64,000 bases of DNA from a virus. Positions 14,638-63,816 of this stretch are shown in pieces. Within the stretch, counting starts at the first letter, position 1, and every line of letters starts with the position of its first letter. Made by a program: the position numbers and the translations under genes. The notes under the pieces were generated by a model. The model was not told the origin of the DNA and did no database searches. It worked only from the letters and a program-made list of their open reading frames with translations. Location: IMG/VR virus record IMGVR_UViG_3300034101_005859, positions 62,001 through 126,000 of that record, one strand, 5' to 3'.

Positions 14638-15016
14638 TTACATTTTCAATCATTTTTGGCAATGAATCATTCCTGTCTATCAAAAAGTATCCCGCATGAA
14701 CCAAGTCCATGGTTTCCCTTACAAAGTTAAGGATTTTTTCTGCTGAAAAATCCTTGCAAGAATAAACATCCATTCTGATATATGGGTTTTCTTCTTTATG
14801 CCACACATGAATACTGGCGTGACTTGTCTCAATTACAACTGTTCCAGTAACACCTTCATTACCTTCTGTGTCACAATATCTCGCAACCGGATCAATCAAA
14901 ATTTGCATGTCTATAATATTAACAAGCTGCGTAAGCCATTTAACACACATATCGGCTGAAACAATGGGATTTCTTACTGTCGCATTCAAAACCATATGCT
15001 TATGATTTTTTTCCAT
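14630..15016 (-). CDS. speD: S-adenosylmethionine decarboxylase-like protein (SpeD family, I)
   Basis: 128 residues from the ATG with SD GAGG at 5 nt; an upstream TTG frame is unlikely. The motif E63-T-S65-H66 carries the serine that in SpeD enzymes self-cleaves to form the pyruvoyl cofactor, with H70 and C87 (VYSC) in the expected places. AdoMet decarboxylase makes decarboxylated SAM for spermidine synthesis. This copy has an untagged N-terminus, unlike the second SpeD at 21.6 kb. Confidence 0.75.
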   Translation of the reverse strand: MEKNHKHMVLNATVRNPIVSADMCVKWLTQLVNIIDMQILIDPVARYCDTEGNEGVTGTVVIETSHASIHVWHKEENPYIRMDVYSCKDFSAEKILNFVRETMDLVHAGYFLIDRNDSLPKMIENVII

Positions 15017-15076
15017 TTTTACCTCAAAAATAAAATCTAAATAGCTCAATCAAATTAGCTCTAGTTCGGTGTAAAC

Positions 15077-28695: not shown

Positions 28696-28962
28696 AAAAA
28701 CAAAAAACAACTAGTCGGAAATTGCGTCAATTCATTCGACGAAGACGGAAACTGCACAATCCCACAAATTCCATACAAAGACACCACACAATTCGCCCAA
28801 TCTGAAGAAAATGCAACACAAATAAATAAAGACCAATTCATGCAAAATGTCAATTTGCCAAATAATCTTAAAGACATAGATGCTATCTATCTCCACGATA
28901 AAAATCATGATTTGTTTATGCTATACGATGACGAAAAAGATGTTCATTATTTCTTCGTGTGA
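28666..28962 (+). CDS. Tagged small acidic protein
   Basis: 98 residues; tag MISFRIFLEN identical to the preceding gene because of the duplication. The body is Asp/Asn-rich and unlike its neighbour, with a beta-rich C-terminus. It overlaps nothing and ends 14 nt before the next gene. No family recognised. Confidence 0.65.
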   Translation: MISFRIFLENKNKKQLVGNCVNSFDEDGNCTIPQIPYKDTTQFAQSEENATQINKDQFMQNVNLPNNLKDIDAIYLHDKNHDLFMLYDDEKDVHYFFV

Positions 28963-28976
28963 TACTAAATATCAAC

Positions 28977-30437
28977 ATGAATAATTCAAAAACATTTTCA
29001 TTCAAAGAATGGTTTTTTAATGAATCCAAAGCAATTATTTTTCCACCAGAAATACAACAAAAATTGCATGAAATTGCAAACAAAATGCTGCCAATACTAA
29101 TTGAACTAAAAAAAGAAGAAGGCAAAATAGAATCAGATAAATACAAATTTGTTGATACAATTGAATTTAATGATCCTTATCAAAACAAAAAAAGAACATA
29201 TGATGTTTGGGCAGTTAGAACAATTGAATCAAAAAGTAAAACTGGTGGCTGGCAACAAGCTTTTTCCCAAAGACCACATATAGTAATTACAACAAATATG
29301 GCATTTCCAGAATTAGAAAAAAATCAACAATGGTTGGATTCTTTGGAAAAAGGAACATCGCATGAAATAATTTACAAATTCGTCTATAATAACAAAGAAA
29401 AAGTACTAGAAGATTTATACGATACTTTATCTCATGAACTAGCTCACGCATACGACCCAACTTTATCAAAAGGATATAGATATAAAAGTGGTTCTCCTGA
29501 AGAATATATGAAAAAAGAAAAAGCATTAAGAGGCAGAGGTCCAATATCAACCCTTTTAGACAAAACTGGTGTTGGTAAATTGTTTGGCAGAAAAAACCCA
29601 GAAGAAGAATTTCAACAACATCTAAAAGATTCAGAAAAAACAAAACTCGCTCCTTATTTGTCTGCTTCTGAACACGATGGTACAGAAGAAGGAAGAAAAA
29701 AAGCATTCGGCAAATATTTTGAACAAGAACCAGAATTCATAGCAAATGTATCTGGATGGGCTAACTATGTCATCAATTACGCAAGACAATCTATCAAAAA
29801 TGACGACCCAAGCGCAATGGTTATAAAACAAATAACAGTTTTCAAAGACTTGATAAATTATATCAGAGAAGGAAAATCACATAGAGAAAAATTTAATCCT
29901 TTAATTCAATCAAATGGATTCAAAGATGTAAAATCTTACATGACTAGGTTTAAGGAAAAGAAACCAAGCATGTACAGAAAACTACTTGAAAAAATATCAA
30001 ATGTTGCACTTGAAGCTTATAACATAATAAGCAAACATATCAAAGACAACAACATAGAATCACAAGTCACGCCAGAAATAAGAAAATGGTTACATGAAAA
30101 TAAAATTGTTGATCCATCAATAAAAGTAACTCGTATCCTTAAGACGATAGGAGCAAAAAATATCAACACACAAGAACAGTATTCGGGAACCATCAAACAA
30201 CAAACAATTAATTTCCGTACAAACAAATCAAATGTACACAACAAAAAATATAAAACAGATGAATATAAATTTATGATAAGATATGAATATCCAAAAAACT
30301 CAGTCGATGAAAAAATGTTAAACAACTTGGAATATGTTATCTCTATACCAGATGATAATAACTATGAATTCGTACCAATCAAAAAAGTAAAAGGAATTGC
30401 AAATCTTGAAAGTTACATGACAGAAGTATTAAGATAA
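28977..30437 (+). CDS. Tagged zinc-metalloprotease-like protein
   Basis: 486 residues from MNNSKTFSFKEWFFNE, a slightly extended tag; ACTAAATA lies 5 nt before the ATG. H153-E-L-A-H157 within LSHELAHAYD is the zinc motif, and a downstream EPEFIANVSGW supplies a likely glutamate ligand, the HExxH-plus-E gluzincin-like layout. The C-terminal ~200 residues are Lys/Ile-rich with no motif. A packaged protease could be injected to cut host proteins. Confidence 0.7.
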   Translation: MNNSKTFSFKEWFFNESKAIIFPPEIQQKLHEIANKMLPILIELKKEEGKIESDKYKFVDTIEFNDPYQNKKRTYDVWAVRTIESKSKTGGWQQAFSQRPHIVITTNMAFPELEKNQQWLDSLEKGTSHEIIYKFVYNNKEKVLEDLYDTLSHELAHAYDPTLSKGYRYKSGSPEEYMKKEKALRGRGPISTLLDKTGVGKLFGRKNPEEEFQQHLKDSEKTKLAPYLSASEHDGTEEGRKKAFGKYFEQEPEFIANVSGWANYVINYARQSIKNDDPSAMVIKQITVFKDLINYIREGKSHREKFNPLIQSNGFKDVKSYMTRFKEKKPSMYRKLLEKISNVALEAYNIISKHIKDNNIESQVTPEIRKWLHENKIVDPSIKVTRILKTIGAKNINTQEQYSGTIKQQTINFRTNKSNVHNKKYKTDEYKFMIRYEYPKNSVDEKMLNNLEYVISIPDDNNYEFVPIKKVKGIANLESYMTEVLR

Positions 30438-30473
30438 TGTTAAAAAATTAGTTTCAATATGATTAAATAAAAT

Positions 30474-30881
30474 ATGACCAGCTTCAAAAAATTTTTAGAA
30501 AACCAAATTCCACCAAATGCAATACCACTCAATATAGATGATATATATATAACTAAAATAAAAGCAGGAGATGGAATAAACTATATCATCTATGATAATG
30601 AAAAAATGATCGGACATATAAGCGGATTTGAACAAGAATTCGGTCAATTCAAAAATATGTTCCATCTATACAAAACCGAACTGAAATCCGAAACCAGAAA
30701 TGACCAAAAATACCAAAACAAAAACATCTACAGAACAGCTATTCAAAAAGTAGCTAACCTTTACTCCAAAGGTCTATTCGTAAACAAATATGAAGCATCT
30801 TCATTATTACGAAAATCACTAGAAAAAATGAACACATACGAATTAGTCAATGACGAAGTCATAACCATTAAACCAGAATAA
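30474..30881 (+). CDS. Tagged protein, possible GNAT-like fold
   Basis: 135 residues; tag MTSFKKFLEN, box ATTAAATA 4 nt upstream. A strand pair (YIIYDNEKMIGHISG) followed by helices resembles the core of acyltransferases, but the acetyl-CoA loop is not clear. Function not assigned. Confidence 0.6.
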   Translation: MTSFKKFLENQIPPNAIPLNIDDIYITKIKAGDGINYIIYDNEKMIGHISGFEQEFGQFKNMFHLYKTELKSETRNDQKYQNKNIYRTAIQKVANLYSKGLFVNKYEASSLLRKSLEKMNTYELVNDEVITIKPE

Positions 30882-30892
30882 GGAATATTCTA

Positions 30893-31402
30893 ATGATCAA
30901 TTTCAAACAATTTTTAATCGAAGACCAAATACTAAGAAGCCAATTAGAAAATCCTGAATATGAGGTTGTCATAACTGGAAGAACAATAGACCAACCAACT
31001 CTCGAAATAAAAAACATAGGTTCAATAAGACTTTATTGGAATTCAAAATATTACTCAGTACATAGCATAAAAGGTCAATCAAAAGGAGCAGGAACAATTT
31101 TATACTTTGCCGCCCTTGAATTCGTAGTCAAATACGCAATAAAACCAGTAAACGCACTACTAGCATCAGACACAACACTATCTCCAGATGCAATAAGAAC
31201 AAGAAAAAGAATACAAGACCACTACGGACAATTTATAACTGTTTACCCACACCCAGAACTAAAAAATGTCAAAAAACACAACTGGACAGACGAAAGATTA
31301 CCCGCAACTCCCGAAGAAGCAAGCATGTGGAGACTCAAAACTCTTAACCACCCATTCTACTTCAAATTCATTTCAGAAAATCCACAAGTAATCATAAACT
31401 AA
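30893..31402 (+). CDS. Tagged protein, possible acyltransferase-like
   Basis: 169 residues; tag MINFKQFLIE. This gene has an SD (AAGGA), unlike most tagged genes. GQSKGAGTILYFAALEF resembles motif A of GNAT acetyltransferases (R/Q-x-x-G-x-G/A). The downstream half is helical and basic. Spacing to the previous gene is 11 nt, which suits SD-based coupling. Confidence 0.6.
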   Translation: MINFKQFLIEDQILRSQLENPEYEVVITGRTIDQPTLEIKNIGSIRLYWNSKYYSVHSIKGQSKGAGTILYFAALEFVVKYAIKPVNALLASDTTLSPDAIRTRKRIQDHYGQFITVYPHPELKNVKKHNWTDERLPATPEEASMWRLKTLNHPFYFKFISENPQVIIN

Positions 31403-31435
31403 ACAATTATCAACTTGATAAAATCATAAAAATAA

Positions 31436-31443
31436 ACTAAATA
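31436..31443 (+). promoter_or_regulatory. ACTAAATA box before tagged gene 31,449
   Basis: Box ends 5 nt before the ATG; no SD. Confidence 0.5.
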
Positions 31444-31448
31444 TTATC

Positions 31449-32039
31449 ATGATATCCTTCAAAAAATTCATCGAAAATAGAACAAATAGACCACAAAGTG
31501 AACCATCATATGGTAATTTTTCCAATATGAACTCGCAATACATCAAGGAAGGAACCAAGATATACAGAGGTGTCAGATTGCCAGTTGAATCACGAAAAAT
31601 GAAAATCAGAGATATTCTCATTCAAGGAACAGAATTCAAAAAAAATAAAGGTCAATCAGACCCTTGGAGTCTTGAATTTCCAGTTGCTGAAAGATTCGCA
31701 ACTGGAAGCGCAATAAGCTCACAAGGATACCTTCTAGGAAAAGAAAATACAGTCAACATTATCGTAGAAGCAGAACTTGATGGGCCAAACAGAGATCAAA
31801 TAGATTGGAAACAGTGGGGCAAAACTATACTTGGACATGGAGTTTCTAAAGGATCTGATGTTGAATCATATTGGAACCCACACAAAATAGGTCAAGTCGG
31901 AATAGAAGATTCACACATCGAAAACGAAGTTCCTATACTCCACTCTGCTTATCCAACACTCAAATTGATAGCAATATATGTCAAAAACCCAGAAACAAAA
32001 AAATGGACTAAAAAAACAGAACCAGAAATATTAGGATAA
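31449..32039 (+). CDS. Tagged ADP-ribosyltransferase-like protein (R-S-E type)
   Basis: 196 residues; tag MISFKKFIEN. The three ART elements are in order: R40 in KIYRGV, S74 in SDPWSLEF, and E158-x-E160 in HIENEVPIL. This is the R-S-E arrangement of arginine-type ADP-ribosyltransferases, the class of T4 Alt, which is packaged and injected to modify host RNA polymerase. The tag plus ART layout makes this the clearest Alt analogue in the window. Confidence 0.65.
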   Translation: MISFKKFIENRTNRPQSEPSYGNFSNMNSQYIKEGTKIYRGVRLPVESRKMKIRDILIQGTEFKKNKGQSDPWSLEFPVAERFATGSAISSQGYLLGKENTVNIIVEAELDGPNRDQIDWKQWGKTILGHGVSKGSDVESYWNPHKIGQVGIEDSHIENEVPILHSAYPTLKLIAIYVKNPETKKWTKKTEPEILG

Positions 32040-32115
32040 ATAAATAAGAAAACAAATCTAGTATCATATCACATCCAAGCTATGAAACAAGAAATTTAAG
32101 AAAATTCAAACAAAA

Positions 32116-32123
32116 ACTAAATA
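32116..32123 (+). promoter_or_regulatory. ACTAAATA box before tagged gene 32,128
   Basis: Box ends 4 nt before the ATG; the ~20 bases around box and ATG are nearly identical to those at 32,988-33,007. Confidence 0.5.
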
Positions 32124-32127
32124 AACC

Positions 32128-32970
32128 ATGATCACCTTCAAACAATTTCTCGAAGGAAAAGCAGAAAATAGGGCCTATTCCCTAGTAAGAGCAAAATTTA
32201 ACCAACCACTTACATTACAAAATTCTGTCCTATTTCCTGTTTCACATGGTCAAGAAGTAGTAACTGACGACCAAAGTGTCAATAAAATGAAAGATTTAAT
32301 GCAAAAAGGCACTACTGTTTGGCATGAAGGAAATCAGGCTGAACATATTGTTGTCGATTTCCTGCAAAAAAACCAATTAGAAAACCTGCCTCTTCTTTCA
32401 TGGGAGCCAGAAGAACATGGTAAAAAAATTAACTCTCAAGGATCGTTGTTAAATGATATCTTCGGCGGAGATACGAAAAATATGTTGTATATGATATACT
32501 CACATCCAGATGTTGCAAATAAGATGGCAAAAGGTGGTCATCAAATTAAAAATAACCATAAAAAAGGAACTTCTCAAATAAAGTGGAATTCTACATCTTC
32601 TTATATTCCTACAATTTTAGAATTGTTAATTAAATCATCTAGTGGCGATCAACAAGCATGGGCATCTAAATCAGCACAAGCATCACCTGAAAATATAAGA
32701 AAATTACTTTCACAAACACCACATTTGTCTGTAATGCTTGATATGGAAGCAACACCGCAAAATATGCACAAGTTTTTGAGTCTAGGACAAAACTTGGCTT
32801 ATAATATATTTTATGTCAAAGGGCGAACAAACACAAACCAACTTGCAAATTTGGAGTCAGAGGTTCAAATCCAGCGTGATACTCATTTATTAGAATTAAT
32901 GAAAAATCAAGGAGGTATATTTTTCGCTGGTAGCGATCATGTTGGCAATGTGAGAAAAATTCTGAAATGA
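32128..32970 (+). CDS. Tagged protein, function unknown
   Basis: 280 residues; tag MITFKQFLEG. The body is alpha/beta with a Gly/Ser-rich middle and a C-terminal FFAGSDHVGNVRKIL segment. No recognised motif. It probably belongs to the packaged set. Confidence 0.65.
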   Translation: MITFKQFLEGKAENRAYSLVRAKFNQPLTLQNSVLFPVSHGQEVVTDDQSVNKMKDLMQKGTTVWHEGNQAEHIVVDFLQKNQLENLPLLSWEPEEHGKKINSQGSLLNDIFGGDTKNMLYMIYSHPDVANKMAKGGHQIKNNHKKGTSQIKWNSTSSYIPTILELLIKSSSGDQQAWASKSAQASPENIRKLLSQTPHLSVMLDMEATPQNMHKFLSLGQNLAYNIFYVKGRTNTNQLANLESEVQIQRDTHLLELMKNQGGIFFAGSDHVGNVRKILK

Positions 32971-32987
32971 TAAAACCATAAACAAAA

Positions 32988-32995
32988 ACTAAATA
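32988..32995 (+). promoter_or_regulatory. ACTAAATA box before tagged gene 33,000
   Basis: Box ends 4 nt before the ATG; no SD. Confidence 0.5.
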
Positions 32996-32999
32996 AACC

Positions 33000-33503
33000 A
33001 TGATCACCTTCAAACAATTTGTCGAAAATCAAGACAAGATGAGTGCTATAAACACACAACAAGCACTTCAGGGAAAACCACAACAATGGATACAAGCATT
33101 AACAAAACTTCCATCAATTCTTCAAAAAGAAATTCTAGACGAAAGAAAAGAACCAACACAAGAAGACATTGATTGGGTCTCTTCTTTTCAAGTCGGACCA
33201 GAACCAGTTAAATACAACATGACCGATTTGCTTAAAAACCCAAACAACCTTTCATCAATAACACGAACTCCATCAGAAGTTGTTCAAGAAATAAATCAAA
33301 AATGGGGATTACAAATAAAACCGGGAAAGGTTTATGATCCAACACCTAATCGATATAAGGACACGGCACTAAAATTCACTGGAGAAACAGCTAAACCTTC
33401 CGTAATGGTAGATGGGGAAATTGTTTTTGGAGTAGGTCGCTTTATTTCTGCCCTTTTAAGAGGCGATAAACAAATGATGGTGTGGGACATCAAAACAAAA
33501 TAA
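33000..33503 (+). CDS. Tagged protein with degenerate ParB-like C-terminus
   Basis: 167 residues; tag MITFKQFVEN. The C-terminal VMVDGEIVFGVGRFISALLRGD resembles the ParB/Srx D-G-x-x-R helix-turn, but His is absent and the Arg is shifted. The middle is Pro- and Gln-rich. Function unknown. Confidence 0.6.
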   Translation: MITFKQFVENQDKMSAINTQQALQGKPQQWIQALTKLPSILQKEILDERKEPTQEDIDWVSSFQVGPEPVKYNMTDLLKNPNNLSSITRTPSEVVQEINQKWGLQIKPGKVYDPTPNRYKDTALKFTGETAKPSVMVDGEIVFGVGRFISALLRGDKQMMVWDIKTK

Positions 33504-33545
33504 ATATATCACCTCATATATTTACAAACAAAAAATAAATAAACC

Positions 33546-33593
33546 ATGATAACATTCAAACAATTCCTAGAATTACAACATTTTTTTGTTTAA
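33546..33593 (+). pseudogene. Orphan tag: 15-codon remnant
   Basis: A TAAATA box, 4-nt spacer and ATG lead into MITFKQFLEL, a perfect tag, which stops after only five more codons. It is probably what is left of a deleted tagged gene, or a tag cassette waiting for a new body. The next tagged gene starts 13 nt later. Confidence 0.7.
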
Positions 33594-33606
33594 GGATAAA
33601 TATAAC

Positions 33607-34641
33607 ATGACTACTTTCAAACAATGGCTTCTTAAAGAAGAAATTGACAGTAATGGCAAAACAGCAATAGTTTATCATAGAACCGACGAAATTGAAAATG
33701 CACTTTCAATACTCCAACATGGATCTAAATCCGATTATGATAAAGACGACCCTATGTTATCCAAGTATCCTATGTTATCCAATTTTGATAAAAGCTTTCA
33801 ACCAAATAGTATGTTCTTCGTCTTTGATCTTGAAAGCACTATGGGAAAGGCAGAAACTTACGGAAATGCTATAATAAAATTCAAAATCACTGATCTTGAT
33901 AAATATCTTGTATTCCATACAAATATGGCTAAAAGAATTCATGGCGACAATTACAAATTAAGTGATCAACTTAGGAAATTCAAAATTTCACAAAAATTCA
34001 CACAAAATTATCTTGATGATATAGACGAAAAACTAGTCACAAATCAATATAACCACATCACTGATGTTAATCCTTTTTTAATTGAAAACGAATGGATAAA
34101 AAGTAAAATAAAAGGCGTTATTTATTGGGGATATGATGATGGATATTGCTTGCTTAAATTCCGTCCAGTAAATGACGGAACAATTACTATGATCGGATAT
34201 GCGACCGACCCACACAAATATTATGAAAAAGATGGGATGATAAAAAGCAAAAATAGAATGAAAGATTTAGAAAAATCTCAAAATTGGACAACATCAACAG
34301 ATATAGCCAAATTCAAATCTATTGATAAAACCCCATACGGACAAAGAGAAAAATATCTTAAAATAAAAGAAAAAAATCCAACTGTCTTGGAAATAATCAA
34401 AAAACTTAAACTAGAGAAAAATATTGAAAAAGATGAATTATTAAAAATAATGAATTCTGTTAAAAATAAAGACGAATTTGCAAAAATGATTATACAAAAT
34501 AAAAAAGAATTAACAGTTGATGATATTTCATTGTTAATGAAATATTCAACAGACTTCTGGGGAATTTGTTCATTTATAATGAAGAATAGACCAGAATTGT
34601 CTAATTATGTTTCTCAAGCTATGTCTCGTTCTCGTAGATAA
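33607..34641 (+). CDS. Tagged protein, ADP-ribosyltransferase-like N-terminal pattern
   Basis: 344 residues; tag MTTFKQWLLK; GGATAAATA box 4 nt before the ATG. The pattern VYHRTDEIENALSILQHGS, then MFFVFDLES, recalls ART-like folds (Tyr-His-Arg, then I-L-x-x-G). The C-terminal ~90 residues are helical and Lys-rich and may be a separate domain. Assignment is weak. Confidence 0.6.
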   Translation: MTTFKQWLLKEEIDSNGKTAIVYHRTDEIENALSILQHGSKSDYDKDDPMLSKYPMLSNFDKSFQPNSMFFVFDLESTMGKAETYGNAIIKFKITDLDKYLVFHTNMAKRIHGDNYKLSDQLRKFKISQKFTQNYLDDIDEKLVTNQYNHITDVNPFLIENEWIKSKIKGVIYWGYDDGYCLLKFRPVNDGTITMIGYATDPHKYYEKDGMIKSKNRMKDLEKSQNWTTSTDIAKFKSIDKTPYGQREKYLKIKEKNPTVLEIIKKLKLEKNIEKDELLKIMNSVKNKDEFAKMIIQNKKELTVDDISLLMKYSTDFWGICSFIMKNRPELSNYVSQAMSRSRR

Positions 34642-34675
34642 ACTTTATTTAACAGTTAACAAAATTCAAACACCA

Positions 34676-34683
34676 ACTAAATA
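34676..34683 (+). promoter_or_regulatory. ACTAAATA box before tagged gene 34,689
   Basis: Box ends 5 nt before the ATG; no SD. Confidence 0.5.
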
Positions 34684-34688
34684 TTACC

Positions 34689-35270
34689 ATGATCACATTC
34701 AAACAATTTCTCGAAAATCAAGAACAAAAAGAAGAACAACCACAAATAAAACAAAGATCAATACCAGTAGGTGGATTCGGAGGATGGAAAATTCACCTCA
34801 GAACAGGATTAGATGACAAAAAAAGAAACGATGCCTATAAACTTGTCCTAAAAATAATTGAAAATAGCGGCAACAAATGGAAATCAAAAATATTAGGAGG
34901 AGGTGAACCAGACGAAAAAGATATTACCATCTACTGCGGACCAAAAGAAGAAGTCAACAGAGCAGCTATGTACATTAAAAACATGCCAGAACTATATGAC
35001 ATGCTGGAGCCACCAGAACCAGATTCTGATGTTTCAAAAGGTAATATTGAAATATTACCAAAAATTTACGCAAGATTTAGCGCATCAATACTAAACACTT
35101 CACCATATACATTCAGTCAATACGGCTGCAAAGGATGGTCTATGTTATATTCTGAAATGCTTAATAGTGGACAAGCTCGTATGGGTAATCGAATATTCGA
35201 CAAAGAAAAAGCTTGCAAAAAATCTTACCTCGTATTATCAAAATTATTCGGCACAGATTTTACTGGATGA
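34689..35270 (+). CDS. Tagged protein, function unknown
   Basis: 193 residues; tag MITFKQFLEN followed by a Gln/Glu linker. The core holds WKIHLRTGLDDKKRNDAYK, then DITIYCG, giving an alpha/beta domain of unknown type; faint resemblance to type III effector-like folds cannot be tested here. A C-terminal KGWSMLYSEML helix is present. Confidence 0.65.
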   Translation: MITFKQFLENQEQKEEQPQIKQRSIPVGGFGGWKIHLRTGLDDKKRNDAYKLVLKIIENSGNKWKSKILGGGEPDEKDITIYCGPKEEVNRAAMYIKNMPELYDMLEPPEPDSDVSKGNIEILPKIYARFSASILNTSPYTFSQYGCKGWSMLYSEMLNSGQARMGNRIFDKEKACKKSYLVLSKLFGTDFTG

Positions 35271-35284
35271 CAATAAATATTACC

Positions 35285-35878
35285 ATGAAAACATTCAAGC
35301 AATTCATGGAAAATAAATTTTTCATATACAAAGAAAATAATGAATATGATGAATACATCTTATCTAAAGAAAAATATGAAAAAGAAATGGAAAAATATAA
35401 AAAAGAACTAGATGAATACAAAAATCAATCCAGATCAATAAAAAAAGAATTCGCACAAAAATTAATGGACGCAGCAAACAAAAATTGGGACGAAGGAAAA
35501 AATGTAATATTCAACACAATGACAAAAACATCAGTAGTTACACCAAAAAACAGAAGCGCAATAAGAATAAATGGATCAGAACTGGAAATAGCATCAGGCA
35601 AAAAATGGACAAGCCTTTCTGGACAACCAACACTCACTATGGCTTATAATCTGAATATTCAACCACCAAATATGCCAGATAAACCAGATAAACCCGAAGA
35701 ACCAGATGAACCATTAGCTTATAAACTAACTCCAGATCAATATGTCAATATCAAAGGAGGTGAAGAATTATGGAGAAATGTACACAAACAAGCAATTGCA
35801 CACGAACTAGAATCAAACCTAGTTGAACCAAATGACTATCAAAAAATATTCGACCTTTACCCAGACCTTAAAAAATAA
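35285..35878 (+). CDS. Tagged coiled-coil protein
   Basis: 197 residues from MKTFKQFMEN; an in-frame ATG 72 nt upstream is rejected because the AATAAATA box and tag mark this start. Residues ~22-60 are a Lys/Glu/Tyr coiled coil. A Pro-Asp-Lys linker (PDKPDKPEEPDEP) separates a C-terminal helical domain. No family recognised. Confidence 0.65.
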   Translation: MKTFKQFMENKFFIYKENNEYDEYILSKEKYEKEMEKYKKELDEYKNQSRSIKKEFAQKLMDAANKNWDEGKNVIFNTMTKTSVVTPKNRSAIRINGSELEIASGKKWTSLSGQPTLTMAYNLNIQPPNMPDKPDKPEEPDEPLAYKLTPDQYVNIKGGEELWRNVHKQAIAHELESNLVEPNDYQKIFDLYPDLKK

Positions 35879-35885
35879 AAAAACC

Positions 35886-35893
35886 ACTAAATA
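35886..35893 (+). promoter_or_regulatory. ACTAAATA box before tagged gene 35,898
   Basis: Box ends 4 nt before the ATG; no SD. Confidence 0.5.
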
Positions 35894-35897
35894 AATC

Positions 35898-36278
35898 ATG
35901 AAAACATTCAAACAATTCCTAGAATCCTACAGAATGGAAGACCAGACATTCTCAGATAACAACGGAACATACTCAGTTCCAAAAATAGTCAAATACGCAA
36001 CAGAAAATAAATTAATACAAAATCTACCAATAGAACCACTACTTCACAACCTAGAACCATCTCCTCATGAATCAGGATCAGAACTTCCCGGCCACCCAGA
36101 ATTCATCGAAAGAGCAGAACAAACTGAACTCAAATACCCAATCATAGTAGTCCAATACCAAGACGGACTATTTATAGCTGACGGTGTACATAGACTCTAT
36201 AAAGCAAATTCCAAAAACCATAAAAATATCAAAGCATACCTAATCAACCAAAATGAACTAGAACAATTCAAAATGTAA
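35898..36278 (+). CDS. Tagged protein with ParB/Srx-like motif
   Basis: 126 residues; tag MKTFKQFLES. The C-terminal YPIIVVQYQDGLFIADGVHRLYKA contains the D-G-V-H-R core of the ParB/sulfiredoxin fold, close to the full motif. It is the last gene of the tagged block before the strand switch. Confidence 0.7.
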   Translation: MKTFKQFLESYRMEDQTFSDNNGTYSVPKIVKYATENKLIQNLPIEPLLHNLEPSPHESGSELPGHPEFIERAEQTELKYPIIVVQYQDGLFIADGVHRLYKANSKNHKNIKAYLINQNELEQFKM

Positions 36279-54859: not shown

Positions 54860-54894
54860 TATCGGCTTTGCTTCTAGGAAATCCGAAGCAGTTT
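54860..54894 (-). repeat. R1 element, copy 22, before the tRNA
   Basis: Loop GGATTTCCT keeps GG/CC. It overlaps the stop codon of the upstream gene and is followed by a tRNA, not an ORF, hinting at a role in RNA processing rather than translation. Confidence 0.9.
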
Positions 54895-55540
54895 AAGCCC
54901 TTCCTTCATTGATAGCTTTTCTATGGAGGAATTCAGACCATGATCCCATGAAGCTCTTGGGATATTCTACGCTTTCAAATGTGAATGTCCTCTTGTTTTT
55001 CCACAACATTGTATGAAACATTCCAGCCTTGCCGGGGTGAATGTCACCAACTTCTATCATGTTACCATGTCCCGGCCAAACCTTCTTACCATTCTCATCA
55101 ATATCTACTGTTCCAATCAAATATGCCTTTTCTTCTCCATAAGGCTTGAAAACAATTGATTCCTGATCATACTTGTTTCCCAATTTCATCATATTTTGCT
55201 TAAACTCTTCATTCCATTTAGAATTCACTTCATCATTGTGCCTAGATTCATCTTCTGGAGTTGTCTCCGTATTCACCTTCATAGGCTTAGATGCAATAAA
55301 CAAAACATCTTCTTGGACAGGATTCTTCTCTCCTTCTGTTCCATATCCTTCTACATAACGACCCTTCATCTTCACAAAACCAAATCCACCACCTCTAACA
55401 TCTGATATAAGATTCTCTGTTCTTATCTTATTCTCTTCCTTGCCGTATATTCCTCTTGATGCTGATACAATGGAAAAAGAATTGTTTTCAAAGTGGCCTA
55501 ATACACGAGTAAGACTTTTAGATGCAGATTCGTTCAACAT
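54893..55540 (-). CDS. Hypothetical protein, DUF3293-like N-terminal pattern
   Basis: 215 residues; AAGGAG 7 nt before the ATG. SIVSASRGIYGKEEN, then LISDVRGGGFGFVKMKGRYVE, resembles the I-[IV]-[ST]-A ... E-N ... L-x-G pattern of DUF3293-type phage/bacterial proteins. Function unknown. Confidence 0.65.
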   Translation of the reverse strand: MLNESASKSLTRVLGHFENNSFSIVSASRGIYGKEENKIRTENLISDVRGGGFGFVKMKGRYVEGYGTEGEKNPVQEDVLFIASKPMKVNTETTPEDESRHNDEVNSKWNEEFKQNMMKLGNKYDQESIVFKPYGEEKAYLIGTVDIDENGKKVWPGHGNMIEVGDIHPGKAGMFHTMLWKNKRTFTFESVEYPKSFMGSWSEFLHRKAINEGRA

Positions 55541-55542
55541 GA

Positions 55543-55725
55543 TTAATCTCCTTCATTTTTATTTGAACCTATATTCTTTACATATTCAAGCCATACCCAA
55601 AATAATTCTTCTTTATTTTCCGAAAATAAAGTAGTTTTCGTCATTTTAATTTGGGAATGGCTATCCATAATTTTAACTCTTTCTGAAAACAACTGTCTTA
55701 AAACATTCTCTCCAAAATCAGTCAT
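55543..55725 (-). CDS. Hypothetical small protein
   Basis: 60 residues beginning MTDFGENVLRQLF; start overlaps the stop of the upstream gene (ATGACTGA), so likely by re-initiation. Helical, Trp-rich C-terminus. No separate SD. Confidence 0.5.
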   Translation of the reverse strand: MTDFGENVLRQLFSERVKIMDSHSQIKMTKTTLFSENKEELFWVWLEYVKNIGSNKNEGD

Positions 55726-56494
55726 CTTGTGTTTGATCTTCGCTTTCATCATCTTCATATGTCGATCCTTCTGGCTCATCATCTCGATAAAGCATGAGAA
55801 GATCACGCTCCAAGTCAACCTCAAAGTAGTCCCCAAATCTATCAGAATCAACATATTCTCTCATGACTGGGGAAAATTCTTGCTTATAAAGAAAATCATC
55901 AGTGTGGAACTTGATGTAATGATATCTGAACTTCTCAAGAACATTAGTTTCTTCTTCACCGATCAAATCCTTGAAAATTTCCCAACTGTGTGACCTGAAT
56001 GCTTTGTATTCAGGATTATTGAGAATTAAGTTTCTTACTGCTCCATTTCGGCAGTTAAAACATTCAATATCATCATCAGTAAATCCTTTGTAATTACAGT
56101 TCCTACAACCCTTAGTAACTCCTCTCTCAAGAATGCTTAGTGTCAAATGATCAAAAGGATTTGTTGGGCAAAATCCATATTGATAACACCAAAAAACTTT
56201 CTTATCCTTGCTCTCAAATGAGTGTTCGTAAACATTGGTTCCCTTGAGAGGAACATTTATAATCCTTGAGCCAATTGATTTTATTCCACTCTTCTGGCAA
56301 ATCCTGTTCACATAAGCTGCCAATGTGTATTCAAACAATGTCCTCTGATAGTGTCCACCAAAGTGGATGTCAGTTCCTGTATGTGTGAACATTCCTGCAA
56401 TCAATGCATCGTGAGGAGGTTTGTTTTTATTGATTATCACTTCACTCATTTCGGTTACAGCGGCCCTTCCCCAATTCGATTCGATATTGAACAT
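55718..56494 (-). CDS. Hypothetical protein with internal zinc ribbon
   Basis: 258 residues; AGGAGTCAAGGAA before the ATG. CRNCNYKGF and IECFNCRNG form a C4 ribbon at ~128-150, followed by a helical part and an acidic tail. Function unknown. Confidence 0.7.
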   Translation of the reverse strand: MFNIESNWGRAAVTEMSEVIINKNKPPHDALIAGMFTHTGTDIHFGGHYQRTLFEYTLAAYVNRICQKSGIKSIGSRIINVPLKGTNVYEHSFESKDKKVFWCYQYGFCPTNPFDHLTLSILERGVTKGCRNCNYKGFTDDDIECFNCRNGAVRNLILNNPEYKAFRSHSWEIFKDLIGEEETNVLEKFRYHYIKFHTDDFLYKQEFSPVMREYVDSDRFGDYFEVDLERDLLMLYRDDEPEGSTYEDDESEDQTQDD

Positions 56495-57013: not shown

Positions 57014-57289
57014 TTAACCCTTCTTGCCAGCTTGCTTGATGAACTCAAGTGTTGAGTTCTCAGTAATGAGAAAGTCATCTCCAACCTTAACACCATTCAC
57101 AAAGGCCACAGCATCTGCTGGGATATTGTGAGTCTGGGAGAATGTGTTGCGTACAGCAGCAACAGTGTGGTTGGCCAAGGGATACATCCCATCTGCCGTA
57201 CCATGGATGACTTTTACAAGACTTTGAGCCAATTGGCCCAAAGATTCATTAGTCTGAACGCTGTTAGAAAAACCAGTAGTATTGCTCAT
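57014..57289 (-). CDS. Ubiquitin-like beta-grasp protein ending in Gly
   Basis: 91 residues from the ATG with GGGGG upstream. VKVIHGTADG starts the first strand, residues 38-56 form the helix, and VNGVKVGDDFLI leads to the last strand LEFIKQAG and the C-terminus KKG91. This order and the terminal Gly fit ThiS/MoaD/Prok_Ub-type modifiers, activated by E1 adenylation at the last Gly. It directly follows the E1 gene. The N-terminal ~20 residues are a flexible Ser/Thr/Asn-rich extension. Confidence 0.75.
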   Translation of the reverse strand: MSNTTGFSNSVQTNESLGQLAQSLVKVIHGTADGMYPLANHTVAAVRNTFSQTHNIPADAVAFVNGVKVGDDFLITENSTLEFIKQAGKKG

Positions 57290-57304
57290 GGTAACCCCCA
57301 TTAA

Positions 57305-58033
57305 TCAGGAAACAAACCGATCACGAACAACACCTGACATGACCACCATGTCAAGTAAAACCTCTCCATACTTCTCAGGACTCTTCAAAACCTTACTTCT
57401 AAATACCTCACTATCGGTGAGATTGTAAAATGCTGAAAGCATATTCGCTGCAATCAGATTGTTCACAATCACCAACTGAGGAGTTTGTTCAGCCTGACGA
57501 CTACAAGAACCCGGCTGATTCAACTGACTAGGATGCAAGTCGTCAGGACTTGCAATCTCTGGATGATATTGTGATGCAAGGGGAGGAGTCAAATCTTTTC
57601 CATCACGACGAATGTGAATTAACACATTGCCATCATGAAGATCGTTACCACCACTTATGACCGTGATATTGTTTAACTCGATAGCTCTGTCACTCACAAT
57701 CTTACGACTGTTGTGATTGTCAACAGCCAAAATCACAATGTCGTTCTCACGAATGTGAGGAACAATATTGTCTTCGCTAAGGAAAACAGGATGATCGACA
57801 ATCCTGATCCTTCCAAACTTTTGTCTCAACTGATTGGCAGTGACTGTTGCCTTGGGGCCAATCTCGTTAAAGTCTTGCCTCTCGGCATTCCTTGCCTCAA
57901 ACTCGTCTCCATCTATTAGATGGACCTCGGCAACAGGAAATTTCTTGGCCTCGTAATTAATGAAACGACAAAGGACAGGAAGAAGACACAATCCAATTCC
58001 TCCTGTCCCTACAACCTTAACCTTTTGCATCAT
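57305..58033 (-). CDS. ThiF/E1-like adenylating enzyme
   Basis: 242 residues; AAGGGG before the ATG. G9-T-G-G-I-G14 nucleotide loop, D41-G-D43, N49 and R52-Q53 for ATP, D105-N and R110, and a likely catalytic C177 in PGSCSRQ, followed by Q186 and N191-N192. All E1 hallmarks are in place. It should adenylate the Ubl's C-terminus and form a thioester. No ubiquitin-fold domain or JAB is fused. Confidence 0.9.
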   Translation of the reverse strand: MMQKVKVVGTGGIGLCLLPVLCRFINYEAKKFPVAEVHLIDGDEFEARNAERQDFNEIGPKATVTANQLRQKFGRIRIVDHPVFLSEDNIVPHIRENDIVILAVDNHNSRKIVSDRAIELNNITVISGGNDLHDGNVLIHIRRDGKDLTPPLASQYHPEIASPDDLHPSQLNQPGSCSRQAEQTPQLVIVNNLIAANMLSAFYNLTDSEVFRSKVLKSPEKYGEVLLDMVVMSGVVRDRFVS

Positions 58034-58065
58034 CAACCCCCCTTAAAACTTTCACCACACCCATA

Positions 58066-58100
58066 TATCGGCTTTGCTTCTCCCCTTTCCGAAGCAGTTT
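58066..58100 (-). repeat. R1 leader, copy 23
   Basis: Loop GGAAAGGGG; precedes the E1 gene and splits the JAMM and E1 genes. Confidence 0.9.
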
Positions 58101-58139: not shown

Positions 58140-59135
58140 TCAATCACCATCCCATTCACGAATTCCGTAGTAATTTTCTTCTGACCTGTAGATTGAGTCT
58201 CTACCTCGGCTACGGTTGTGTTGATTAAGTTTCCACATATCATACCATTCTTCGTCATCACTATCCTTCTTGGACTTGATATCTTGATAAGTCCAAGAAG
58301 AGCTAGGAGCAGAATCAGTGATTGGTGAGACGAACTTGGTTACTTTTTCCATCCAAGCTGGAAGGACATTTGCCAAGAATTCAGCATGATCAGACTTTTC
58401 TTGTTCATTGAGTTCATCGAGTCTGAACCAATACTCAGTTCTTTTGGTTGTACGCTCGTAGACAGACCCACGATGACTATATTCTTCTTTTTCCGTAACT
58501 TCCTCTTCCGAATCAGCAACAAGTCCATCTGCGACATCTGTTGGATTCATTTTCGTTCTATTGTTGTTAAAGCAAATGCTGCTTGCGATACTAAACTTGT
58601 CGGAATTAACATGGCCAAATGTCAGGTGAATACCATCAAAGCTGGCCTCGTCTGCCTCGTCAGTTCCACTGTGGAATGCACTAAAATCACAATGAGAGTG
58701 AATAGTTCCAACCATCTGCCATCCAGCACCTTCGCTGCCGATATAATCACGCTCCTCAAAAGAAACAGTATCTGTTCTGTCGTAATCAACTGAACAATAG
58801 CTCACTGTTTGGTTTGGGCACCAAAGCTTATAGTCATTCAACTTCTTTGAATAAAGAAGAGTCAAATAAGACTCGCTTCTGTGATTGGAAAAGACAGTTC
58901 TGAAGAATGTCTTTGCCTGATACATGATCTTGACAGGGATGTTTGGCAAAGTGAACTTTGTATTCAGCTTTGCATTGTCAAGAAAAGGAATGGAGCCAAC
59001 CTTGACAAGAGATGAACCATGTAGCCTCTCCACTCGGAGATAAATGCCGTCTTTGGCAACAACATAATATGTTCCATTTTCAGGAGGAGTAAAACCATTA
59101 GAAGCTAAATAAACTGGAAATGTAACAATCGACAT
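58140..59135 (-). CDS. JAB/JAMM isopeptidase (deubiquitinase-like)
   Basis: 331 residues; AAGGAG upstream of the ATG. E88 (SES), H146-S-H148 and S156-G-T-D159 form the JAMM zinc motif with the normal spacing, so it should be active. It would remove the Ubl from targets or trim its tail. The C-terminal ~150 residues are acidic, then basic and Tyr/Arg-rich, with no motif. The gene is 26 nt after the stop of the AT-hook gene. Confidence 0.85.
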   Translation of the reverse strand: MSIVTFPVYLASNGFTPPENGTYYVVAKDGIYLRVERLHGSSLVKVGSIPFLDNAKLNTKFTLPNIPVKIMYQAKTFFRTVFSNHRSESYLTLLYSKKLNDYKLWCPNQTVSYCSVDYDRTDTVSFEERDYIGSEGAGWQMVGTIHSHCDFSAFHSGTDEADEASFDGIHLTFGHVNSDKFSIASSICFNNNRTKMNPTDVADGLVADSEEEVTEKEEYSHRGSVYERTTKRTEYWFRLDELNEQEKSDHAEFLANVLPAWMEKVTKFVSPITDSAPSSSWTYQDIKSKKDSDDEEWYDMWKLNQHNRSRGRDSIYRSEENYYGIREWDGD

Positions 59136-59161: not shown

Positions 59162-60610
59162 TTAAGAAACTTTCCTTGGCCTTCCACGCTTTCTCAGAGT
59201 CTCACCATTAGGACCAACAAGACAACCACTGCTTGCTACCAAGTCGATGCTTTTCTCAATATCTGGAGGAAGAGATTCCTTCTTTGGCCTTCCACGGCGA
59301 GGCTTAGAAAGAACAGCACCTTGTTCATCAAAATTCTGTTGCAACTTGGCCTTAATGGATTCAACACTTTTCAACTCATCTTGCAAATAGTTGTAAATGT
59401 TGAAAAGCTCAAGCTGAACAAGGTTCCTTAGATTGTCCCAAGACTCTTTCTGAGAATTAAAATTGCTGATCTGGTATCCCAAATTCCTTTCCCTAACGGA
59501 AATATCTCTCTCCAAATTACTAAGCCTGCTCTCGTCTTCAAAGACCTTATCCTTATGCTCGGAATGAGCAACTTTCCAAAGATTGGAATAGGCTTGATTG
59601 ACCATATAATTCAAATTATTTGTCAGTACTGTTAAATGAGCCGAATTTCTATTCTCTTCTGCAACATCAACACTATTCAGACTGCTGATAACACTTGAGA
59701 CATAATTTTCAGTCTCGCTCTGAATTACGCCTGTAATGTTGTTGAGCAGAACAGCACGATTATTGCGACTACTATAGTCACTTGAAATAAACTGACTAAC
59801 AGGACCATAAGATTCATAAAGGCAACTATTGGAAAGCACAAAAAGAGGATCTGCTGCACTTTTCTTGTGCCATGCTGCCATGCAACCATGAATGTTGACA
59901 TTGCTGCCATTATCACCGTTTTTACGGTATTCTTGTGAGAAGTTTCTATCCAACCATATCCTGAAATACTCGGATAAGTCAATGTTGAACTCACTCTGCC
60001 AGAAAAGGTTGATTATTTCATTGCACTTCGTCGAAATATCAACTTCCAGATTATAAGAACTACTTGCCTGATTCATAATATCACCAAGACACAAACTGTT
60101 TCCCATGTTGGGCAACTGCAAACGCTCAACATTGGAATCGAGAGAAGAAATTGGTTTCTTCGACCCAGAAATTCTCACCTGAATCAACCTCAAGGTGTTG
60201 TTATTGTTCGCCGAAAAAACAATGTAGAATTGCACGAAAGGCAATGCCACATTGTAGTTTTGACCAAGAAAATTAATCACACGAACAGTTGGCTTCTGCT
60301 CAATGACAATGTTAACATCTCTACCTTCACGATGGACAAACCTTGTCCCTTCTGGGAAAACAATTAATTGATTAGATTGATTGTTGACCCAAGAATTACA
60401 ATAGCCCTCAAGCTGAGATGTAATCTTTTCTTTAAGGTTCGCAACATCCTTATCACAAGAATCATTGATTACTGAACCAAAATTATTCTTGAGCCTCGAC
60501 AAAACAATGCTTGTGCCATTTCTCATGGCATCTGCTGCTTCTCGGAATTGACTTGAAGACTTGATGTCTTCACAAACAGCAATCAACTTGGCTTCTGTTT
60601 CACTACTCAT
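59162..60610 (-). CDS. Prok-E2-like protein with coiled coil and two AT-hooks
   Basis: 482 residues; AAGGGGG upstream and ATGA overlap with the previous gene. Residues ~80-180 are strand-rich and end in LPNMGNSLCLGD: a conserved-looking Pro-Asn then Leu-C174-Leu-Gly, similar to the P-N ... C-x-G of PRTRC protein B / Prok-E2_D. C174 is a candidate thioester cysteine. Residues ~350-430 form a coiled coil. PRRGRPKK (437-444) and KRGRPRK (474-480) are two classical AT-hooks that bind the minor groove of AT-rich DNA. The E2 call is inference. Confidence 0.6.
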   Translation of the reverse strand: MSSETEAKLIAVCEDIKSSSQFREAADAMRNGTSIVLSRLKNNFGSVINDSCDKDVANLKEKITSQLEGYCNSWVNNQSNQLIVFPEGTRFVHREGRDVNIVIEQKPTVRVINFLGQNYNVALPFVQFYIVFSANNNNTLRLIQVRISGSKKPISSLDSNVERLQLPNMGNSLCLGDIMNQASSSYNLEVDISTKCNEIINLFWQSEFNIDLSEYFRIWLDRNFSQEYRKNGDNGSNVNIHGCMAAWHKKSAADPLFVLSNSCLYESYGPVSQFISSDYSSRNNRAVLLNNITGVIQSETENYVSSVISSLNSVDVAEENRNSAHLTVLTNNLNYMVNQAYSNLWKVAHSEHKDKVFEDESRLSNLERDISVRERNLGYQISNFNSQKESWDNLRNLVQLELFNIYNYLQDELKSVESIKAKLQQNFDEQGAVLSKPRRGRPKKESLPPDIEKSIDLVASSGCLVGPNGETLRKRGRPRKVS

Positions 60611-60900
60611 GTGCGATTCCCCCTTCTTTGTTTTATCGGCTTTGCTTCTTCCGATTCCGAAACAGTTTTATCAAAAGGCATTCCAATGTAATCATATGCT
60701 TCTTCTATGTTTTTGAATCTAGGGCTATTTTGTTCTATCTGAAGAATTCCCTTCCAATCAAATTTTTGAAGGTAATACACAAAACCTTGATCTATGCTCG
60801 AAGAAAAAACACAAGGATAGAAATGAAAATTTTTAACGGAAAATGGTTTGAGTTCTTTTTCACTTTTAGGCCAATCCTTTTCCTTTTTTTTAATTGTCAT
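60607..60900 (-). CDS. Hypothetical protein of the Ubl operon
   Basis: 97 residues; GAGG 8 nt before the ATG; overlaps genes on both sides by 4 nt (ATGA). The C-terminal ~20 codons are encoded by an R1 copy. Basic N-terminus, aromatic centre. No family recognised. Confidence 0.65.
   Translation of the reverse strand: MTIKKKEKDWPKSEKELKPFSVKNFHFYPCVFSSSIDQGFVYYLQKFDWKGILQIEQNSPRFKNIEEAYDYIGMPFDKTVSESEEAKPIKQRRGNRT
60634..60668 (-). repeat. R1 element inside a coding sequence, copy 24
   Basis: TGTTTC faces GAAGCA (one G-U pair). It is read in frame as SESEEAKPIK in the preceding gene, and the next gene's SD follows it. Confidence 0.85.
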
Positions 60901-62012
60901 GATGAAGTCCTCTTCAACCTTGAAGCAAGATTGCTCCTCCATTCATCCATTCTAGAAACAGACATCTGGAAAAGCTCTTTCACCTTTTCCACAACAGGAC
61001 TATTTCTAACAAAACCTGAGATAAATCTTTTTGGAGAATATCCATAATCAGAACAGTAGAAATGGTCAAATCCATAATGAATAGGATTTGCCCCTTGGTT
61101 TGTATAATTAATTTTCAATCCCCAAGAATCAACAACTGTCGATTTAATATAAAGACTAGGATTCATTGGATCTAATTGATACTTGTCAAGATTATTCAAA
61201 ACCTGAGATGAAATATGAGCAAGCATTATAGACTGGGCAGGGAAAAGAAACTTGTTGATTTCACCTAACCTTTCGGGATCAAAAGAATTCTGATCAAAAT
61301 TATTACTCGTACAATTCTGGGTCTTTATAGACCTTAAAAAATGACCCAAAACTAAATCATAACTATCACGACCAAAGTTGCTTAAACCAAGAAAGTAATT
61401 GTTGTCTTGAACTATTGAATCAGAATGATGTAGAGTCAAAACCTTCAATAAAGAACTGAATAAGTGAAAAGATTTTTCGTCATAGTATTCAAGATTAAAA
61501 TTTCGTTGTCTTAAACTGTTTTGTGTTGAATTGTTGATGCTATAAGTTAAATCAAGACGATCATAATCAACACGACCTGATAATCTTCTGTTTTTCCTAG
61601 CTCTTGTGACATTGACGAATCCCAAACCAATTGCATTGAGAAAAGAATTGATGTTGGCAGTTGTTGGTTTTTTAGACCTCAAACCAATTATCGTTTCATA
61701 ATCAACCTTGAAAGAATCGTTGGATTGAGAAGAAAGTCGATAAACAATACTACGATCATTTTGAACGCACCATTCTGCCATTTCATCAATGGTTGCGAAA
61801 TTCATATCAGACTTGCTGATATAAAAACGGATATTACCGCTTTCTTCCCTTTGGCCAGCAATGTACTTGCCAGTTTCTTCCCTGCAATAAGGAAGTGCCA
61901 AATTCCACCTACCCGAACTATCACGATTGACATAATGAACAGGTTTGGAAACACCATTCCCAAAGTCGTAAATGAAATGAGAATTCTTCAAAGAATCAAC
62001 CAAACTACTCAT
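60897..62012 (-). CDS. Unknown protein of the Ubl operon
   Basis: 371 residues; AAGGAG 6 nt before the ATG. Mixed alpha/beta, with a basic patch KNRRLSGR, a His/Ser-rich centre, and a C-terminal helix ending RLKRTSS. No catalytic motif recognised. Its placement between a DNA-binding E2-like gene and a RuvB-like ATPase suggests a target or adaptor role. Confidence 0.7.
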   Translation of the reverse strand: MSSLVDSLKNSHFIYDFGNGVSKPVHYVNRDSSGRWNLALPYCREETGKYIAGQREESGNIRFYISKSDMNFATIDEMAEWCVQNDRSIVYRLSSQSNDSFKVDYETIIGLRSKKPTTANINSFLNAIGLGFVNVTRARKNRRLSGRVDYDRLDLTYSINNSTQNSLRQRNFNLEYYDEKSFHLFSSLLKVLTLHHSDSIVQDNNYFLGLSNFGRDSYDLVLGHFLRSIKTQNCTSNNFDQNSFDPERLGEINKFLFPAQSIMLAHISSQVLNNLDKYQLDPMNPSLYIKSTVVDSWGLKINYTNQGANPIHYGFDHFYCSDYGYSPKRFISGFVRNSPVVEKVKELFQMSVSRMDEWRSNLASRLKRTSS

Positions 62013-62015
62013 GAT

Positions 62016-62351
62016 TTACTCCTTATCAATGATGAGCATTGCCTGCTCAAGTGCCTTATTGATAGTACCTGATATATTGTCAACAAAACTTTGTAGCCTT
62101 TGGGCACAAGCAAAGAGTGCTTCTTTCTTAGTCTTGTAGCACTCTTCCATGATTACTGGCTTCTCATCAAAAGAACCATTATCTTGGATTCTGGCACACA
62201 ATGAATACTCAGGAAGAATAACCTTCCACTTGAACAAATGGAAAAATGCACAATCACGAGGTTCGTAATTCTGACTCAACCCCGCAAAATTTGTGTAAAC
62301 TATATCACCAGCAATACATTCAGAAGTCTTGACCTTGTTGTCTTCTGGCAT
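62016..62351 (-). CDS. Hypothetical protein of the Ubl operon
   Basis: 111 residues; GAGGAG 6 nt before the ATG. Beta-rich first half with several Cys, helical second half. It ends 3 nt before the next gene. No family recognised. Confidence 0.65.
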   Translation of the reverse strand: MPEDNKVKTSECIAGDIVYTNFAGLSQNYEPRDCAFFHLFKWKVILPEYSLCARIQDNGSFDEKPVIMEECYKTKKEALFACAQRLQSFVDNISGTINKALEQAMLIIDKE

Positions 62352-62370
62352 TGAATTCTCCTCAACCATA

Positions 62371-62405
62371 TATCGGCTTTGCTTCTTCCCAATCCGAAGC
62401 AGTTT
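62371..62405 (-). repeat. R1 leader, copy 25
   Basis: Loop GGATTGGGA; first of two R1 copies in a row upstream of 62,351. Confidence 0.9.
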
Positions 62406-62442
62406 CAAGAATTAGTGATCAACATGATTGGTTGCACCCATA

Positions 62443-62607: not shown

Positions 62608-63816
62608 TCAAATCATAGATTCGATTTCTTTGATCAGACTTTTCATGAATGATTTCTTTTGTTCTTCACTACCAAGTCTTTTAAGTACTTCCACAATTAC
62701 ATACTTGGGATCAATGTTGACAGAAGGACCATTCGGATCATGAGCTAACTGGTCAAACAACCTCATGTCAACTAAGAGACGACTTCCTTCATCAGTAAGA
62801 ATATAACCTCTGGTACTGCTCTTAATCAGAGAACTCTGATCTTCTGTTTCTGCAATCAATGTTGGAATAATGTAATTCTCAAGCTCCTCTTCCTTCCTTC
62901 CAATCATCGTAGCCAAGTTCTTTTTACTGAGAGCGCCACCCTCGAGGTTCTTCAAAACCTTCATCTGATTCTCATTGAATCCATATTCATTGATTCCTTC
63001 GTCATTAGCCACCGACTTGGCTATTTCTTTCCACGACATGTCATTATGCATTTTCCTATACATTTCCATGTACCTAGCAAATTGTAATGCCTGCCTAGGA
63101 ACCCTTGGATTATAATGAGAAACAAGGTTGCAGACTTCCTCAGACAAATCAGGATGATTATTTCCTACAATCTTCGCAACATCCTTCTTGCCAAGATATT
63201 GAAGATGAATTGGATTAAACCTAGTCCTAAATGCATCAAATAACTTTCCCTCATCTGTAGTGGCAACCATCCATGTTGCCGCATATGTGTCCAGAATCCT
63301 TCCGCTCTCTGTCTGCATGATGGCATCGCCAAACTCGGTAGCCTTGAGCAAACCTTGAATGATTCCATCAGATAAAGCATGGACCTCGTCAAAGAACAAA
63401 ACACAGGGAGGCAAAACATGCTTGCCTTCATCTAAATCAACCAATCCAATACCTGCACGGCTTAAAACACCGTCTATAAAGTCGAATACATCATCAAGGG
63501 CCTTAACACCCTTTGGACTTATTTCGATGAATGGGAGCCTTACTGCTTCACCATAGATCCTTGCCAAAGTCGTCTTTCCTGCACTTGCTGGCCCAAATAT
63601 GCTAAAGCTCAAATCCCTCATCATGTGATTAGGGTGACCCAAAGCATGATAGGCCGCAACCTGCAACTTCTTCACTGCCTTGTCGTTTCCAACAAACTTG
63701 TGAAAAGGACTCTCTTTGGCTTTCCTGTCTACAAGAACCAACTTCTCTTCCTCAGTTGGCGCTTTTCTTCTCAGAGAATCGCCTTCCCCAAAAAATATAA
63801 AATGAGGCTGTTCCAT
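62608..63816 (-). CDS. RuvB-like AAA+ ATPase
   Basis: 402 residues; AAGGAAGG upstream of the ATG. Walker A G75-P-A-S-A-G-K-T82, Walker B VLFFDEVH (139-146), sensor 1 near T186, and arginine finger FRTRF. The C-terminus (YGFNENQMKVLKNLEGGALS onward) matches the RuvB winged helix. RuvB drives Holliday-junction branch migration; here it may work on replication or on Ubl-linked DNA complexes. It lies just upstream of the cassette. Confidence 0.85.
   Translation of the reverse strand: MEQPHFIFFGEGDSLRRKAPTEEEKLVLVDRKAKESPFHKFVGNDKAVKKLQVAAYHALGHPNHMMRDLSFSIFGPASAGKTTLARIYGEAVRLPFIEISPKGVKALDDVFDFIDGVLSRAGIGLVDLDEGKHVLPPCVLFFDEVHALSDGIIQGLLKATEFGDAIMQTESGRILDTYAATWMVATTDEGKLFDAFRTRFNPIHLQYLGKKDVAKIVGNNHPDLSEEVCNLVSHYNPRVPRQALQFARYMEMYRKMHNDMSWKEIAKSVANDEGINEYGFNENQMKVLKNLEGGALSKKNLATMIGRKEEELENYIIPTLIAETEDQSSLIKSSTRGYILTDEGSRLLVDMRLFDQLAHDPNGPSVNIDPKYVIVEVLKRLGSEEQKKSFMKSLIKEIESMI

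Follow-up and report, generated by a model that had tools for sequence, protein, structure and literature searches.

Is a 482-residue phage protein that combines an E2-like LPN...Cys segment with two C-terminal AT-hook cores a ubiquitin-like conjugating enzyme that works on DNA, and if so, what could it be doing in a phage? The protein is encoded within a stretch of 64,000 bases (the window) that corresponds to bases 62001-126000 of a 136,667-base IMG/VR virus record, which is possibly a fragment of a larger genome. Outside the window, the same record encodes a major head protein, a head maturation protease, and portal and baseplate proteins; hence, the source is a tailed phage. The gene begins with ATG and sits among tightly packed genes, its start codon overlapping the stop codon of the upstream gene 60607-60942; downstream, it is followed, in this order, by genes for a JAB protease, an E1 and a small ubiquitin-like modifier (Ubl) (Table 1). 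Below we argue, with a probability that we would put at roughly 60%, that the product is a DNA-tethered E2-like enzyme of the Prok-E2_D/PRTRC_B lineage, which would serve a '6d'-type system for ubiquitin-like conjugation in the phage.

Table 1. The E2-like gene, its landmarks and its neighbours (positions in the window)
Feature	Position (strand)	Description
E2-like protein	59162..60610 (-)	482 aa; helical N-terminus 1-79; E2_D-like domain ~80-215; helices and predicted coiled coil ~235-431; AT-hook tail 435-482
L166-P167-N168	60107..60115 (-)	counterpart of eukaryotic E2 HPN; Leu for His, Asn kept
C174	60089..60091 (-)	in SLCLGD; predicted catalytic cysteine; invariant in both domain alignments
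AT-hook 1	59279..59296 (-)	core RGRPKK, residues 439-444; counterpart RGRPRK in L022, different codons
AT-hook 2	59171..59188 (-)	core RGRPRK, residues 475-480; counterpart RGRPRK in L022, different codons
JAB/JAMM protease (PRTRC_A-like)	58140..59135 (-)	E88, H146, H148, S156, D159 intact
Promoter-like repeat copy (dispersed)	58058-58080 (-)	just upstream of the E1-Ubl genes
E1/ThiF adenylyltransferase (PRTRC_ThiF-like)	57305..58036 (-)	glycine-rich loop, invariant C178
Ubl	57014..57301 (-)	95 aa, predicted beta-grasp; C-terminus IKQAGKKG
Conserved neighbour	55718..56494 (-)	258 aa; one CxxC...CxxC zinc ribbon

Relatives and affinities of the E2-like domain

A 98% copy of the E2-like protein is found in another IMG/VR contig. 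A search pattern derived from the JAB active site led to one more distant phage, for which there are two contigs (L022 and L023); its protein at the E2 position shows 28% identity over 476 residues and has the same architecture, including the coiled coil and two C-terminal RGRPRK hooks. Another phage (L005) carries two tandem paralogues (L005:4896-6922), with 27% and 21% identity to the window protein over the full alignment; both keep the LPN and cysteine motif, end before the hook tail and have no AT-hooks, and the two might make up an E2 pair. The gene order E2-JAB-E1-Ubl is common to the three phage lineages. A tblastn search of the GenBank phage collection yielded no homologue of the E2-like protein, and searches of GTDB genomes with E2 patterns and the JAB motif gave no match, so that no bacterial copy is seen at that sensitivity. 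A match to Proteus phage 10 (E 10), with no annotated E1 or JAB neighbour, was dropped.

In eukaryotic E2s, the catalytic cysteine comes a few residues after the HPN motif, so the LPN...C of the phage protein reads as the same site with leucine in place of histidine. The sequence-only reading of this DNA had noted an LPN...LCLG segment like that of Prok-E2_D; the segment is indeed present (residues 166-168 and C174), and the likeness to the family is borne out by relatives and by profile-profile comparison, but not by any significant score for the protein alone. Direct Pfam, NCBIfam and PHROG scans returned nothing significant, PF14460 (Prok-E2_D) and TIGR03737 (PRTRC_B) giving no match, whereas among the relatives PF14460 picks up an L005 homologue at E 4.9e-4 and the L022 protein at E 0.016, both below the family cut-off. 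In hhalign, the profile of the E2-like family matched an E2_D/PRTRC_B profile of seven sequences (a plasmid protein annotated as PRTRC_B, another annotated as E2 ligase family D, and same-place proteins of other plasmid and phage cassettes) with a probability of 94.1-94.4% and E values of 1.3e-7 and 9e-8, cysteine falling on cysteine; as controls, the same profile gave E 0.39 against the JAB alignment and E 0.73 against the E1 alignment. When the domains of four homologues from the three phage lineages were aligned with those of seven PRTRC_B/E2_D proteins from plasmids and cultured phages, four columns proved invariant in all 11 sequences, the Asn of LPN and C174 among them. A lack of conservation of this cysteine had been named beforehand as a refutation, and Cys is found in all these homologues.

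Like the Prok-E2_D/PRTRC_B proteins of type 6d operons (PMC1779556), the phage protein combines a predicted beta-meander, PxN...CxG and a predicted helix with F..S.F, and its gene lies beside those for a JAB, a ThiF-type E1 and a Ubl; unlike those proteins of ~240 aa, it has ~480 aa, with N-terminal helices, a coiled coil and two AT-hooks in addition. Judging by the alignments, residues ~80-215 are a divergent member of the Prok-E2_D/PRTRC_B lineage.

A histidine C-terminal to the cysteine, described as absolutely conserved in 6d E2s and seen as a substitute (Iyer et al. 2006, PMC1779556), is absent from the phage family, where EFNID, EFNTD, QFGGD and VFGSG stand instead of FTH/FNH; it is also missing in several plasmid or phage E2_D members. 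This absence, along with the leucine at the place of the HPN histidine, would suit a scaffold of E2/RWD type without catalysis, one that binds DNA and brings in the Ubl or the E1 but forms no thioester of its own, and some bacterial E2-like proteins of the neighbouring operon type 6e are predicted to be inactive. However, the predicted-inactive 6e domains lack the cysteine (PMC1779556), whereas in the phages it is invariant in every homologue, both L005 paralogues included, and the Asn of HPN is kept; a dead scaffold thus appears distinctly unlikely.

Structure prediction, the other check envisaged at the outset, gave a favourable but not decisive answer. Modelled at full length, the protein reaches a poor pLDDT of 50; modelled alone, the domain (pLDDT 68, pTM 0.65) is a six-stranded meander followed by the Cys loop (pLDDT <50) and then a helix. 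A structure search with this moderate-confidence model found Ube2W over 97 residues at 3.6 A with Z 5.3, that is, below 8 and, at Z ~5, within the range that the tool calls common; most of the top 20 matches are E2s (Ube2W, UBE2L6, Rad6, Cdc34, UFC1) and RWD-type proteins, and many E2 chains fall within the top 30. Foldseek against the PDB produced no significant E2 match, listing non-significant urate oxidase and NTF2-like chains, and an HMM search of PDB sequences returned no E2. Among viral models, the third-ranking Foldseek match (probability 0.90) was the Acinetobacter phage ME3 protein encoded directly before 'PRTRC system protein A'. An E2/RWD fold of the domain is considered likely, not proven.

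The AT-hook tail

The two AT-hook cores reported at the end of the protein, RGRPKK and RGRPRK, are both there, and both have counterparts in the 28%-identical relative. In 200,000 shuffles of the protein, one core arose in 6 and two cores in none, and no other GRP cores with basic flanks occur in open frames of at least 60 aa across the window. The codons of the cores differ, GGA AGG CCA in the window protein corresponding to GGT CGG CCT or CCC in L022, and the hooks are separated by a linker that differs from one phage to the other in length and in sequence. Hooks that persist in different codons while the linker diverges point to selection at the protein level; a chance origin of the two hooks was rejected on the shuffling together with the codon divergence. 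A GRP core with Arg/Lys flanks, repeated and conserved, is what defines the motif here; the Pfam AT_hook model scored below its cut-off on the protein alone (E 0.38), and PF02178 gave 16.0 bits on AT-hook 2 (E 0.0034 for one genome), a single-motif score that falls short of the 17.4-bit cut-off.

AT-hooks bind to short AT tracts whatever the genome, and some AT-hook motifs bind RNA. Since the motifs are short, an active E2 might use its C-terminal basic motifs for RNA binding, for general nucleic-acid affinity, or to hold an acidic partner, for instance the complex of Ubl and E1; the L005 paralogues, if active, manage without hooks, and the locus of the hook-bearing L022 relative, with 48% GC, is not AT-rich. 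Against this, two exact GRP centres retained at 28% identity in different codons are the hallmark of minor-groove hooks, not of some loosely basic stretch, and we consider such another role unlikely. DNA tethering of the E2 is the reading that we prefer, on the understanding that the hookless L005 paralogues make tethering inessential to the system. The further suggestion of the sequence-only reading, that conjugation takes place on AT-rich DNA and possibly on the phage's own genome, gained no support of its own; with 48% GC at the L022 locus (37% in the window), AT-rich phage DNA was dropped as the specific target.

The same phage encodes a second AT-hook protein outside the window (L035:5114-5491, that is, G000:C1:129113-129490), also present in the 98% virus copy. 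This protein of ~105-125 aa carries GRP motifs towards both ends, GRPKK on the N-terminal side and KRGRPRK on the C-terminal side, and its middle looks, by eye, HTH-like.

Operon partners and genome context

Across eight phage and plasmid proteins, the E1 cysteine and ATP-site residues do not vary, nor do any of the JAMM residues. IKQAG[KV]KG closes the Ubl across the three lineages, with a terminal glycine in all three; the L005 homologue of the Ubl matches TGS (beta-grasp) at 2.2e-4, and the link of the Ubl to PRTRC_C is weak (E 0.007, probability 5%). A single C-terminal glycine of the modifier suffices for conjugation by Cap2 in CBASS (PMC10097602), and the phage Ubl likewise has a single glycine at its end. 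With intact E1, JAB and Ubl C-terminus, the kit looks, at the level of sequence, catalytically complete. The zinc-ribbon protein has a homologue (L022:6477-7283, E 5e-20) encoded directly upstream of the L022 E2 gene, and it may be an accessory or substrate-recruitment factor.

A Gly-ending Ubl, a JAB, an E1 and an E2-like protein, all adjacent, make up the set of a 6d-type operon. A PRTRC cassette comprises, in addition to ThiF, a ParB-related protein and PRTRC A-F; in contrast, the phage-borne set has only A-, B- and ThiF-like proteins and a distant Ubl, and neither the PRTRC_parB nor the PRTRC_C profile matched anything in the 137-kb record, which may itself be a fragment.

The single C-terminal glycine and the ThiF-type E1 would also be compatible with a ThiS/MoaD-like sulfur carrier pathway, in which the E2-like protein would act as a thiol relay, with the modification of DNA or tRNA as a possible purpose, and JAB proteins occur in sulfur-carrier operons too (PMC1779556). 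The genes, however, have their affinities with PRTRC_A/PRTRC_ThiF and E2_D, for which conjugation is the predicted role, and the tested neighbours included no recognisable rhodanese, sulfurtransferase or biosynthesis gene, so that sulfur transfer seems very improbable and conjugation remains the preferred function.

Next to the operon lies a gene (62608-63816) for a RuvB-like AAA protein, also matched as a clamp loader, with 42% identity to its counterpart in LR756511, an uncultured huge phage of 595 kb; another neighbour (54893-55540) encodes an S-adenosylmethionine lyase-like protein (Pfam PF23780, E 5.4e-7) with a possible anti-restriction role. These neighbours fit an early or replication-phase region and prove nothing. 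By eye, the genome that has this lyase-like gene also encodes a MetK-like S-adenosylmethionine synthetase and two SpeD-like decarboxylase candidates (22358-23485, 21588-22115 and 14630-15049).

A dispersed element, AAACTGCTTCGGAA...GAAGCAAAGCCGATATATGGGTG, occurs in 22 copies within 36763-62457, on the minus strand, and in 6 further copies in L035; the copies, all on the same strand, lie mostly 10-70 bases 5' of start codons, two of them preceding 62016-62408, and the element resembles a promoter or leader repeated across the phage genome. Elsewhere, many consecutive plus-strand ORFs in 28959-36278, otherwise different proteins, begin (by eye) like M-I-[ST]-F-K-[QK]-[FW]-[LI]-E-N, perhaps a repeated leader for targeting or packaging.

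A proposed DNA-tethered conjugation system and its known counterparts

The gene set, the catalytic residues, the homology and the persistence of the hooks can be read from the sequences themselves; as to the thioester chemistry, the DNA binding, the targets and the outcome, we infer the following cycle. The Ubl would be adenylated at its C-terminal glycine by the E1 and passed, probably via C178 of the E1, to C174 of the E2-like protein and then to target lysines; the JAB would take the tag off. The coiled coil probably oligomerises the E2, and the long helical stretch predicted at ~322-431, ahead of the hooks, could be the coiled coil by which two E2s pair, giving four hooks per dimer. With the two C-terminal AT-hooks docking the E2 in the minor groove of AT tracts, the preferred targets would be DNA-bound proteins of replication, transcription or the nucleoid, either of the phage or of the host: nucleoid or RNA polymerase factors are the candidates on the host side, and the phage's own replication proteins are the alternative. 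Tentatively, and at somewhat less than even odds, we envisage that this AT-hook-anchored system tags DNA-bound proteins on the phage or host chromosome, as a counterpart of chromatin-tethered SUMO/ubiquitin ligation.

The E1-E2-JAB logic is common to this kit, the CBASS Cap2/Cap3 systems and BilABCD. The latter two are bacterial defences against phages, whereas here the genes are the phage's, two separate proteins make up E1 and E2, and AT-hooks are part of the E2. JAB, E1-like and E2_D-like proteins also lie close together in the PRTRC-like cassettes of Acinetobacter phage ME3, Bacillus phage KLEB27-3 and Vibrio phage D69, but the E2-like proteins of these phages are shorter and have no AT-hooks; D69 and KLEB27-3, unlike the window phage, encode tandem poly-Ubl proteins, with three repeats ending TGTKG in D69 (L007:1400-2191) and four PRTRC_C matches in one frame in KLEB27-3 (OM634661, 172984-173637).

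A survey of 224 jumbo phage genomes makes no mention of JAB or E2-like proteins (PMC7824862). E2_D operons are already known, and some cultured phages carry them, partly annotated and, as far as the open literature that was searched shows, without study. The AT-hook-bearing E2_D form, kept in two diverged phages, is to our knowledge undescribed: the open papers searched describe no E2-like protein with AT-hooks, in keeping with the remark of the sequence-only reading.

Ubiquitin-like conjugation in bacteria is known mainly as a defence against phages. Here, a phage appears to encode the whole set of proteins for conjugation and deconjugation of the E2_D type, which is poorly studied, with the E2 fused to a predicted DNA anchor. 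The predicted anchor hints that the substrates of 6d/PRTRC-type systems may be proteins on DNA, so that the function of the plasmid and phage operons becomes a testable question.
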